A DNA stretch of 32,229 nt. Source: Candidatus Poseidoniaceae archaeon (GTDB lineage: Archaea > Thermoplasmatota > Poseidoniia > Poseidoniales > Poseidoniaceae). Both the position numbers and the translations under genes were made by a program. The notes below the pieces were generated by a model. That model was not told the origin of the DNA. It searched no databases and was given only the letters and a program-made list of their open reading frames with translations. Shown here piece after piece: positions 15,305-18,665 of this stretch. How positions within the stretch are numbered: position 1 is the stretch's first letter; each line of letters opens with the position of its first letter. The stretch is taken from NCBI GenBank assembly GCA_028821785.1, contig JAPKFC010000018.1, positions 1 through 32,229 of the forward strand, written 5' to 3'.

Positions 15305-17053
15305 TTAAACTGGGTCTGGAAGTGCAGAATTAAGCAATGTCACATCAAATTCTGCTCCATTGATTGGTACTTTGAGTTCAAACTCATTTGATACAGAAGG
15401 GTCTATTTCACCAAAGCATCCCACCCATGTATCTCCAATCAATACTTTTGCAGATCTTCCAGTCAACCAAGGACCTTCTCCATCTGGTAGCGCCTCAATT
15501 GTGTAATCCTTTGCGCCTAAGTCTCTCAGCATTGCTTGGATTCTACCGCGAACAGCAGCAAAACCGCCGCCCTTTTCAGCCATCAAGAATGCAACACGGT
15601 CGCAATTCTTGTGATCTCTAACAACAGTTCCTAATTCGTATACCCCTTGAGGTAATTCATGATGGCGGTTGCTTGCAAGTAATCTAAATAATCCTGGAAG
15701 GATATATTGCCGTAGTAGTGTATGGTCGATTGTAATTGGGTTGGTGATTCTGGTAACCTTTCCACTTTGTTGCCATCGCATCAATTCAAATTGGTCACGG
15801 TCATTTGACAGAGTCAGTGATTGGATTTGCATAAATCCAAGACCTTGTAATGAATCTCTAATTCTCCTTCTAATATGATTATCAGAGCGTGGAATTGCGG
15901 TTAGTGGTGCCTTTGCAACATCTTGACCTAGATCTTCATATCCATGGCCAATAGCGATTTCTTCAACTAAATCTACTGGATGCAAGATGTCAAATCGCCA
16001 ACGAGGCATGATGAAATTAAGCATCTGCTCTCCTGCAGCAGCATCAGCCATACGCTTTGGAATCGTTGGAGAGTTTTCAGGTGCAGGACTGAGTCCAGAA
16101 AAAATACCACCCATGCGATTTATTGAAGTAGACAGTTCATCAGATGAAAATTCTCGTCCCAATAGACCATTTACCAATCGTTGTGGTACGCTATGAGTTA
16201 TTCCATTACCATTAGGAAGAGTCTCGTTTACTCCATCTATTCCATTGACAATTACTGATTCAACGACTCCGCCATGCTCCGCTAATTGCATTGCGATCAG
16301 CATCAAAGATGATTCACAAGCACGGCGATCCCAACCGGTGACATCAATGAAAAATTCGGTGGTCGAATGTGTTACAGTGGTATGGTCTCCATTGATGATT
16401 GGAGGGAAGGATAGAACTTTATCGCTTGAGTCCAGTATAATCGGATAACGTTCCATATCTGCCATTAGGTGAGCATAATCAATTCCTTTAGGATGATTTT
16501 CCAATATTTGTGTAATAGTCATATCTTCTTCCATAGCGAGTGGGGTGAAAGAATAATCCTTATCGACACCTATTACTCTAAACGGAGGCTGTAATTTTGC
16601 TAGGTCATGAACTCCAATAGAAGCACGCTTTCTGCCACGTCCTAAAGCGAAATGTAACTTTTCTTGATGGTCCATCAGTGTTTGAATGAATGCATCCTTT
16701 TCAGCCGAAGTTGTGCCAATATTGACACCCCTAACAACCGCTCCGAGTATAACTGGTCTAATCGTTGCAAGTTCCGAATCTACATTCATCTCAATTGTTC
16801 CTTCAATGACATTCATATTTGGTTCTGCGGTAGTTCCATGCAAAAATGGTCTGAGTGCAAATGCTAATGTTTCTCCAGATAGCAAGTCTGGCCTATCAGG
16901 AAATATTTCAATGTCTAGAACCTCATCATCACAATTGTCAACATCAGTTCCCATCAATGGTAATTGGTCTGCGAGAATTGCGATATCATGTACAAGTCCA
17001 TGTGACTTCATAATCTCGGCCAATAAGCTCTGTTGAACAGAAATAGTCGGAAT
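15305..17053 (-). CDS. pheT: Phenylalanyl-tRNA synthetase beta subunit, probable AUU start
   Basis: The beta subunit of the heterotetrameric class II PheRS. The archaeal short form (582 residues) contains DIEIFPDRPDLLSGETLAFAL near the N-terminus, the B3/4 editing-type region, the B5 region, and the pseudo-catalytic end. The first canonical start in frame is TTG 17023, but coding-like sequence continues upstream as PTISVQQSLL, matching the usual archaeal PheT opening MPTxxV. No ATG, GTG or TTG precedes it, whereas ATT 17053 sits seven bases after GAGG within GAGGTGATC, a near-perfect Shine-Dalgarno match. The upstream gene's TGA (17058-17060) lies inside that site, so the two genes are probably coupled. 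The alpha subunit pheS is not adjacent. Confidence 0.93.
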   Translation of the reverse strand: MPTISVQQSLLAEIMKSHGLVHDIAILADQLPLMGTDVDNCDDEVLDIEIFPDRPDLLSGETLAFALRPFLHGTTAEPNMNVIEGTIEMNVDSELATIRPVILGAVVRGVNIGTTSAEKDAFIQTLMDHQEKLHFALGRGRKRASIGVHDLAKLQPPFRVIGVDKDYSFTPLAMEEDMTITQILENHPKGIDYAHLMADMERYPIILDSSDKVLSFPPIINGDHTTVTHSTTEFFIDVTGWDRRACESSLMLIAMQLAEHGGVVESVIVNGIDGVNETLPNGNGITHSVPQRLVNGLLGREFSSDELSTSINRMGGIFSGLSPAPENSPTIPKRMADAAAGEQMLNFIMPRWRFDILHPVDLVEEIAIGHGYEDLGQDVAKAPLTAIPRSDNHIRRRIRDSLQGLGFMQIQSLTLSNDRDQFELMRWQQSGKVTRITNPITIDHTLLRQYILPGLFRLLASNRHHELPQGVYELGTVVRDHKNCDRVAFLMAEKGGGFAAVRGRIQAMLRDLGAKDYTIEALPDGEGPWLTGRSAKVLIGDTWVGCFGEIDPSVSNEFELKVPINGAEFDVTLLNSALPDPV

Positions 17054-17055
17054 AA

Positions 17056-17064
17056 GATCACCTC
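17056..17064 (-). promoter_or_regulatory. Ribosome-binding site of pheT, placing an AUU start
   Basis: The minus strand reads GAGGTGATC, the complement of nine bases of the usual archaeal 16S 3' end. The next triplet at correct spacing is ATT at 17053-17051. The site overlaps the stop codon of the upstream gene. Confidence 0.7.
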
Positions 17065-18665
17065 GCGAACCAATGTGGCAATGGCCGTTCGTATCCGGCT
17101 AAGCGCAATCCGCTAACCGCAGCAGTTTCATGGTCTAAAGCACGTAGATGGGTTCGCTTTAATTCATCTATTGAGGACAAACCTAGGCGGCGAAGTATGG
17201 CGGTAATGTCAGTACTTATGCTACTCAACCAATTGGCTAAATCAGTCGCTTCAACCATTGGTACTTCACAACAGATAACTGAGATTCCACTGGCTTTTAA
17301 TATCGCCAAGTCATGCCCATCAGCAGAAAAACCCAGCAGGATTCCTGCCTGTGTTACAGTTCCTTCAAGATGGCTTTTACTAGAACGTCCAATCAATGGT
17401 AATGATGCAGATTCTGGCAGCCCCGAACCATCTTCAATACGGGTTACTGCAAGGTCTGTGTTGTGGTGTGAACTGCGAACGTGTAGGGATTGAATTCTTC
17501 CCAATCCTTGGATAAATATGACCGGTGCTGAATATCCGACAAGATATGTCGTGGCAACGAGCATACCATCCATTTCTTCCGAATTCATCGCTGGTAAATC
17601 ATCAAGGTCAAAGGCGATCCCTCCGGCATTGGATAGCAATCTTGGCATATCTGGTAAATTTTCTGAGTTTATCATCACTATATCGATTGGGCGTGGAGAA
17701 TCTAGAGTAATGAAAGGCTGTTGCGATAGTATGTTTGATGCTATTGCATCTTCATTTTTGTCAATAAACAAATCCTTGCCGCTTGGTACAATGGGTAGTA
17801 GGGGGAGTGGTAATGCGATTGGTGTATTTTTCCCTTTTCTTTCACCAATTAATGCAATTGTGTCTGTTACAGAATAATTTGCCAATTGATGGTCATCGGA
17901 AGGAACTAGTCCTATTCCGGTTAAATCTCCACTTGAAACAACATCTCCTCTGCCTTCAACATTTAATGTTGGGCTCGGAGTTAAGCAAACAGCATCTTTA
18001 GGAATCTCTAAATCAGCTTCACCGAGAAGTGCATTAATCTCTTTCACTTCCTTTGCAGCCAGTGGTCTAAGAGAAACTCCACTCGGAGGAGTAGGGCATC
18101 TTCCATTGATTACAATACGTCCGCCGGTCATTCCTGAACCAGGTTCACTACCTACATCGCCATGAACGACTATTAATCCATCAGACATTCCACCACCGAT
18201 TCTCGAACCAGTCGAGCCACGGATTACAATTAGTCCGCCAGTCATATTACCACCAGCATCATTTCCAACACCATCTAGAATCGTAATTCTTCCAGTTCTC
18301 ATGGCATATCCAGCATGATTCCCTGCCATTCTTTCACATAGGATTGTGTTTCCATCATTACCAGCACCCAAGAATGATCCAGCATCTCCTTGGATAGTAA
18401 ATGCTCCACCTTGTCCATATGAAGCAATCCAAGAACCAAATACTCCAAGACCTCTCATTCTGGAGCCCTTTGGCAATGCAGGACATAATCCGAGTTCTCC
18501 ATTTTTGGGAACTTTATCCCCTGCAGGGTTCCATCCAATACGAAGAATTGCATTTTGTTCAGCAGCCGCAAGTAACTTTGGTCCGAGTTTATCATTGATG
18601 TTGATAGACCTTTCAACTACTTCAAAACTTTCCGCCATAACCTGCGGTGTGCGCGACCTGCTCAA
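17058..18665 (-). CDS. Glutamate-synthase-like GXGXG protein with eroded synthase domain
   Basis: 535 residues. Residues ~70-195 hold the right-handed beta-helix of the GXGXG family (GltB C-terminal domain, FwdC/FmdC), seen as repeats such as GGNMTGGLIVIRGSTGSRIG and GGMSDGLIVVHGDVGSEPG. The C-terminal ~200 residues recall the end of the GltB FMN domain, including the last helices (LRRLGLSSIDELKR, ALDHETAAVSGLRLAGY). The Cys cluster that should hold the 3Fe-4S centre is reduced to VICC at 463-466, and no FMN-binding signature is apparent, so this is probably not an active synthase alone. The start is TTG 18665 behind GGGAGG; ATG 18638 is an alternative. It lies four bases upstream of pheT's start. 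Its real reaction is unknown. Confidence 0.72.
   Translation of the reverse strand: MSRSRTPQVMAESFEVVERSININDKLGPKLLAAAEQNAILRIGWNPAGDKVPKNGELGLCPALPKGSRMRGLGVFGSWIASYGQGGAFTIQGDAGSFLGAGNDGNTILCERMAGNHAGYAMRTGRITILDGVGNDAGGNMTGGLIVIRGSTGSRIGGGMSDGLIVVHGDVGSEPGSGMTGGRIVINGRCPTPPSGVSLRPLAAKEVKEINALLGEADLEIPKDAVCLTPSPTLNVEGRGDVVSSGDLTGIGLVPSDDHQLANYSVTDTIALIGERKGKNTPIALPLPLLPIVPSGKDLFIDKNEDAIASNILSQQPFITLDSPRPIDIVMINSENLPDMPRLLSNAGGIAFDLDDLPAMNSEEMDGMLVATTYLVGYSAPVIFIQGLGRIQSLHVRSSHHNTDLAVTRIEDGSGLPESASLPLIGRSSKSHLEGTVTQAGILLGFSADGHDLAILKASGISVICCEVPMVEATDLANWLSSISTDITAILRRLGLSSIDELKRTHLRALDHETAAVSGLRLAGYERPLPHWFAR

Follow-up and report, generated by a model that had tools for sequence, protein, structure and literature searches.

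An essential translation gene that starts with AUU is known from bacteria: infC of E. coli begins with ATT (ATC in Streptomyces), encodes a fidelity factor and is autoregulated, and Streptomyces sigR begins with GTC, a non-canonical start that gene finders misplace and whose control by IF3 has been shown experimentally (PMC5472188; this and the other papers given by PMC number are drawn on from partial texts). In E. coli AUU is a weak start, for which PMC10666635 cites a value of about 0.3% of AUG. The archaeal factor aIF1 destabilizes complexes on non-AUG mRNAs and thus disfavors such starts (PMC6237735), and the available part of a review of archaeal initiation mentions AUG, GUG, and UUG starts only (PMC7531240). 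Where start codon switches have been counted, 1 of 61,358 ancestral AUG starts became AUU, and weak starts accompany stronger Shine-Dalgarno (SD) sequences (PMC5622118). Reinitiation has been described in E. coli (PMC2268962), and in both Haloferax and E. coli it is favored by very short distances (PMC10666635).

In several separate lineages of the marine Poseidoniales the start codon of pheT appears to be AUU or CUG, both very rare as starts, instead of AUG. Like infC, pheT is an essential translation gene with an apparent AUU start, but it is archaeal, its product is an aminoacyl-tRNA synthetase subunit (PheRS beta) and no start-codon fidelity factor, and it differs further in its repeated switches among AUG, UUG, CUG, and AUU. 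As in sigR, the start is one that gene finders would misplace. With the termination-reinitiation pairs of Haloferax and E. coli it shares a very short stop-to-start distance, whereas the available part of PMC10666635 mentions ATT just where it might account for rare -5 overlaps. The replacement of AUG and the trend toward a stronger SD recall the switches of PMC5622118, but AUU, so rare among the switches counted there, seems to have arisen more than once at this one gene. The open-licence PMC literature yielded no paper joining Poseidoniales with start codon and none joining pheT with noncanonical start codon, which is no proof of absence.

The window, that is, the whole stretch of 32,229 nucleotides that was analyzed, belongs to a genome (G000) of 1.82 Mb in 92 contigs, and its features near the pheT start are collected in Table 1. 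On the minus strand the junction reads ...TTCGCGAGGTGATCTT-ATT-CCGACTATTTCTGTT... with ATT at 17053-17051 (in codons, TTC GCG AGG TGA TCTT ATT CCG ACT ATT TCT GTT), and PTISV is encoded directly after the ATT in the pheT frame. The original prediction placed PTISV upstream of every in-frame ATG, GTG, or TTG, and this is correct: in the window's genome the frame is open for 15 codons between the preceding stop and ATT, none of them one of these three, and the first NTG below is the TTG at codon 11, followed by an ATG at codon 15 (17011).

Table 1. Features around the start of pheT in the window
Feature	Position	Strand	Basis or remark
Proposed AUU start codon of pheT	17051..17053	-	Sequence and start codons of relatives
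Shine-Dalgarno GAGGTGATC	17056..17064	-	9-base match to complement of 16S tail
TGA stop of upstream gene	17058..17060	-	Inside SD; 4 bases from pheT start
pheT, PheRS beta subunit	15305..17053	-	582 aa if read from AUU; PF17759, PF03484, PF03483, TIGR00471
Downstream TTG (codon 11), mechanical start	17021..17023	-	Rejected; G071, of the same clade, has TTA
Upstream gene, weakly GXGXG / formylmethanofuran dehydrogenase subunit C-like	17058..18665	-	Matches below curated cut-offs; transcript shared with pheT presumed

The protein read from ATT is an archaeal-type PheRS beta subunit. It matches the archaeal PheT model TIGR00471 over its full length with 412 bits (cut-off 282.65), residues 1-572 lying on profile positions 1-548 and the alignment thus starting at residue 1, and it carries the Pfam B3_4, B5, and CLM domains. 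The PDB chain 7dpi_B has an identical PTISV from its residue 2 on, which aligns to residue 2 of the window's PheT. Pro-Thr follows the start without exception in 201 full-length PheT records; it also does so in every genome of the start-codon tally below, whose pattern requires it.

The gene before pheT encodes 535 residues and ends at the TGA 17060-17058, with pheT the next gene. It is not pheS; its product is weakly GXGXG or FwdC-like, with matches that fall below the cut-offs. A comparison of 35 genomes shows this gene directly before pheT on the same strand in 34, the remaining one being cut by a contig end. In the single-contig genome G059 the upstream gene (L123:5884-7375) has a shorter open frame that lacks the usual N-terminus. 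The pheS gene lies on a different contig in the window's genome (contig 45, L152) and about 140 kb from pheT in G059. It was matched in full in 9 of 12 genomes, and in these 9 its start, read by eye, appears to be ATG. The pheS of the window's genome likewise seems to start with ATG, with no obvious SD, so that expression of the two PheRS subunits seems to take separate routes.

The N-terminus was compared with those of Poseidoniales relatives. Among 58 genomes of the same genus (g1) in which the pheT start codon was read, 7 have ATT and the other 51 have ATG at the same codon. The 7 ATT genomes, the window's and six more, form a clade with 83-100% PheT identity (83-97% between the window and the six further genomes), and a 21-base pattern across the SD and start occurs in these genomes only, among 318 genomes of the order. 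One member is AH-273-O19, which we take from its style of naming to be a single-cell genome. All differences in codons 2-10 are synonymous in 21 of 21 pairings (seven rows from six genomes, one present twice), and over all 7 clade genomes the variable sites in these codons fall seven times at the third position and once each at the second and first. Since the differences there are almost all synonymous, codons 2-10 are coding, and a start at the downstream TTG or ATG is therefore rejected. The TTG at codon 11 is also not conserved, being TTA in G071; all 7 genomes have the codon-15 ATG, but a start there would discard the conserved N-terminus and, by eye, it lacks a conserved SD. Four of the 7 have an in-frame NTG above the ATT, the window's genome not among them; these codons fall inside the preceding gene and are not conserved. 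Other upstream in-frame starts occur at -3 in G035 (GTG) and at -26 (ATG) or -15/-28 (TTG) in some genomes of genus g2.

On this comparison it is very likely that pheT is initiated at AUU, as originally predicted. Two findings that could have overturned that prediction did not materialize: the homology of the relatives extends upstream of TTG 17023, and a sequencing error for ATG is untenable with seven assemblies agreeing on ATT. The alignment of the archaeal PheT profile from residue 1 and the recurrence of ATT in another family support it as well.

The pheT start codon could be read in 181 genomes, where it is ATG in 137, ATT in 20, TTG in 13, CTG in 8, and GTG in 3. In f2, another family of the order, pheT again lacks a canonical start in many genomes. 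There 132 of 148 genomes have a pheT match and nine of the 132 were not read at the N-terminus; the 123 read have ATG 86 times, ATT 13, TTG 13, CTG 8, and GTG 3. By genus, ATT is found there in g4 (5 of 22 genomes) and g2 (8 of 10), and CTG in g3 (6 of 17) and g4 (2 of 22). Within each of the genera g3 and g4 the start flips among ATG, TTG, and CTG (and ATT in g4), which is unusually labile for an essential gene. Eighty public loci, all of family f1 as far as identity tells and overlapping with the 181 genomes, have ATG 69 times, GTG 5, ATT 4, and TTG 2, the ATT ones belonging to the window's clade. In the g4 genomes G056, G308, G309, and G310 three codons are open above the ATT and the next NTG lies 22-33 codons downstream; the next NTG is 81-88 codons below the CTG of G301 and G296 and 62 codons below the start in G201 and G202. 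A canonical downstream start in these genes would cost conserved protein. A scan of the 318 genomes of the order with a non-NTG pattern gave 38 hits, among which the 30 with loci include PheT from the 7 clade genomes only; because it requires I at residue 4 together with Q at residue 8, the pattern misses family f2.

A PheT tree was built from 97 proteins with the first residue left out (201 records reduce to 174 distinct ones, from which 53 f1 public-locus rows and 24 g1 ATG rows were omitted). The fewest changes on it, a count that gives no direction, are 6 for ATT versus other codons, 3 for CTG, 8 for non-NTG versus NTG, and 16 for all start codons. ATT occurs in four separated groups of the tree: the g1 clade (99, starred), a g4 clade of four genomes (99, starred), G303 (neighboring forks 88-90, unstarred), and g2, a group that contains ATG in G200 and G049.

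The genes around pheT served as a control, in 35 genomes and 14 ortholog groups with 313 members, pheT included; the groups are the 14 of 32 clusters whose window member lies on a gene judged real, the other 18 being dropped. A member was flagged if it has no NTG from 30 codons before to 6 codons after the conserved onset. This flags pheT in 13 of the 35 genomes, which is a contrast between genes and not a rate since the genomes were partly chosen by their pheT start; as pheT starts with a non-NTG codon in 20 of these genomes, the sensitivity of the test is 13/20. By a test of that sensitivity, the other 13 groups show no convincing non-NTG start in the 35 genomes. The flagged neighbors have an NTG 7-13 codons past an onset that the rule set too early, except for the upstream gene in G059 (a short open frame) and G295 (a contig end). 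A special initiator tRNA was also looked for: 30 of 35 tRNA matches were examined, 28 of which ARAGORN named, and they include Met (CAT) twice and Ile (GAT) once and none with an AAT anticodon.

Two genomes of the ATT clade, and G059 as well, have GGATCACCTCCT as their 16S tail; a search of the window's own assembly found no 16S gene. Over 9 bases GAGGTGATC matches the complement of this tail, and the match ends 2 bases before ATT. The nearly full match to the anti-SD in the original prediction thus stands, and its distance of seven bases is that from GAGG rather than from the end of the full match. With the A of GGTGA as reference point, ATT lies at a spacing of 4, which is the modal value among the SD-led genes of the window's genome (20 of 35); in 372 kb of that genome, window included, 35 of 231 ORFs have an SD of at least 6 with a canonical start and 196 lack one. 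Among codons between an upstream stop and the first canonical start in the same 372 kb, ATT 17053 is the sole non-NTG codon with an SD of at least 7 and the next NTG more than 5 codons away, and no other ATT start with a long SD was found; leaderless ATT starts are invisible to that scan. Elsewhere in this genome (L140:16584, contig 11, minus strand) there is a possible ATA start at the usual spacing, with a TGA overlapping GAGGT (a 5-base SD), the next NTG 11 codons on, and an ORF of 597 aa whose protein gave no useful family.

A spacing of 4 is also found in 19 of 20 ATT rows and in all 8 CTG rows, and among 33 distinct ATG rows of the same genus 32 share it. The median SD duplex energies are -13.4 kcal/mol for ATT, -12.5 for TTG, -10.75 for ATG, and -9.5 for CTG. 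With a cut of -11.6 for a strong SD, picked after the medians were seen, independent pairs for non-ATG versus strong SD are about 4 concordant and 0 opposite (median p 0.125), and for ATT alone about 1 concordant and 0.1 opposite; compensation of non-ATG starts by the SD is thus a trend only and not significant.

The stop codon of the upstream gene is very near the start wherever ATT is used. In the 20 distinct ATT rows it lies 4 bases (12 rows, as in the window) or 1 base (8 rows) away, whereas 88 of 126 ATG rows have a gap of 8-10 and the CTG rows of g3 a gap of 9. Put the other way, ATT is found in 20 of 51 rows with a gap of at most 4 and in none of 120 with a larger gap (3 rows were undetermined). 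Such a distance in every ATT genome suggests coupled initiation, and the association of ATT with a short gap or a strong SD is not significant because independent contrasts are few and genus confounds them.

It is very likely that pheT is translated from AUU 17053, which the ordinary initiator tRNA would read as methionine. The strong SD, which overlaps the stop codon of the upstream gene, would hold the small subunit, and a ribosome finishing the upstream gene would sit on the pheT start, so that the start could be chosen by termination-reinitiation or by SD-directed initiation at a fixed spacing. AUG may then not be strictly needed, because the SD and coupling do the placement, and it would have been swapped for AUU, CUG, UUG, or GUG several times in the Poseidoniales; the output of PheT after its loss was probably lower but sufficient. 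Of the reasons for which AUG may have been lost repeatedly (a relaxed need for it, lowered output, or regulation), a relaxed choice of start codon under SD-directed, coupled initiation is probably the best, and it fits at least as well as the lowered or regulated output of PheRS beta that was originally suggested; we rank a tuning of output next and regard regulation as possible.

Tuning would mean that AUU or CUG was selected to keep PheT low relative to the upstream gene, as a fixed device that is neither relaxed nor regulated, and it is a somewhat unlikely account of the locus. It would suit the position of pheS on another contig with a seemingly ATG start, since the two PheRS subunits are then not translated from one junction, and it would suit the retention of T at the third base of the start codon in three ATT clades, where fourfold T sites stay T at 13 of 86, 20 of 51, and 29 of 66 sites (the g2 group, in which G049 has ATG, was left aside; there 6 of 40 sites are all T). 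That retention points to a constraint on the codon, of the kind a working start would have. It is no test, however, since uniform ATT was the reason for choosing the three clades, and a simple failure of AUA and AUC as starts would preserve T as well. Nor is the absence of reversion to G informative, as just 21 of 86, 12 of 51, and 9 of 66 of these fourfold sites show G, and the SDs that accompany ATT are stronger, not weaker.

A regulatory role of the AUU start is very doubtful. It would subject PheT to start-codon fidelity (aIF1) or to a signal of starvation, much as IF3 controls infC. Precedents are infC and sigR (PMC5472188), and the recurrence in one translation gene, with none detected in its neighbors by a test of limited sensitivity, would agree with such a role; on the other hand PheT is no initiation factor, no regulatory element came to notice in these comparisons, and close relatives start pheT with ATG or TTG. 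A joint version, which we hold to be doubtful, would make pheT of the Poseidoniales an archaeal counterpart of infC, its repeatedly acquired non-AUG start tying synthesis both to start-codon fidelity and to the upstream gene and acting, through aIF1 activity or the supply of initiator tRNA, as a growth-linked brake on PheRS.

The readings that deny an AUU start are highly improbable. A start at TTG 17023 or ATG 17011 with loss of the N-terminus would use the nearest NTG codons, and the codon-15 ATG has the merit of being present throughout the clade, but codons 2-10 evolve as coding sequence, codon 11 varies, and 22-88 codons separate the start from the next NTG in several further lineages with ATT or CTG. 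Equally improbable is a sequencing error, against which the seven assemblies agree, or a fusion produced by a +1 frameshift out of the upstream gene: pheT is in +1 relative to the upstream stop and, with an identical 4-base gap throughout, the g1 ATT clade taken alone would be compatible with a frameshift, but the gap, and so the frame relation, varies in relatives (it is 1 in the g2 ATT genomes), and a fusion is therefore not conserved.

Under the preferred reading, a relaxed choice of start codon with coupled initiation, near-cognate starts would be tolerable in archaeal initiation when an SD and coupling place the ribosome, and pheT would offer a conserved AUU start that arose more than once at a single locus, in an archaeal housekeeping gene. 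Limiting gene calls to NTG would miss this start and leave PheT 10 residues short here and up to about 88 short in other lineages. Species with ATT beside species with ATG at equal spacing are natural pairs in which the roles of aIF1, SD strength, and reinitiation could be compared, and pheT would lend itself to testing, in a natural setting, how the start of a protein is selected in archaea.
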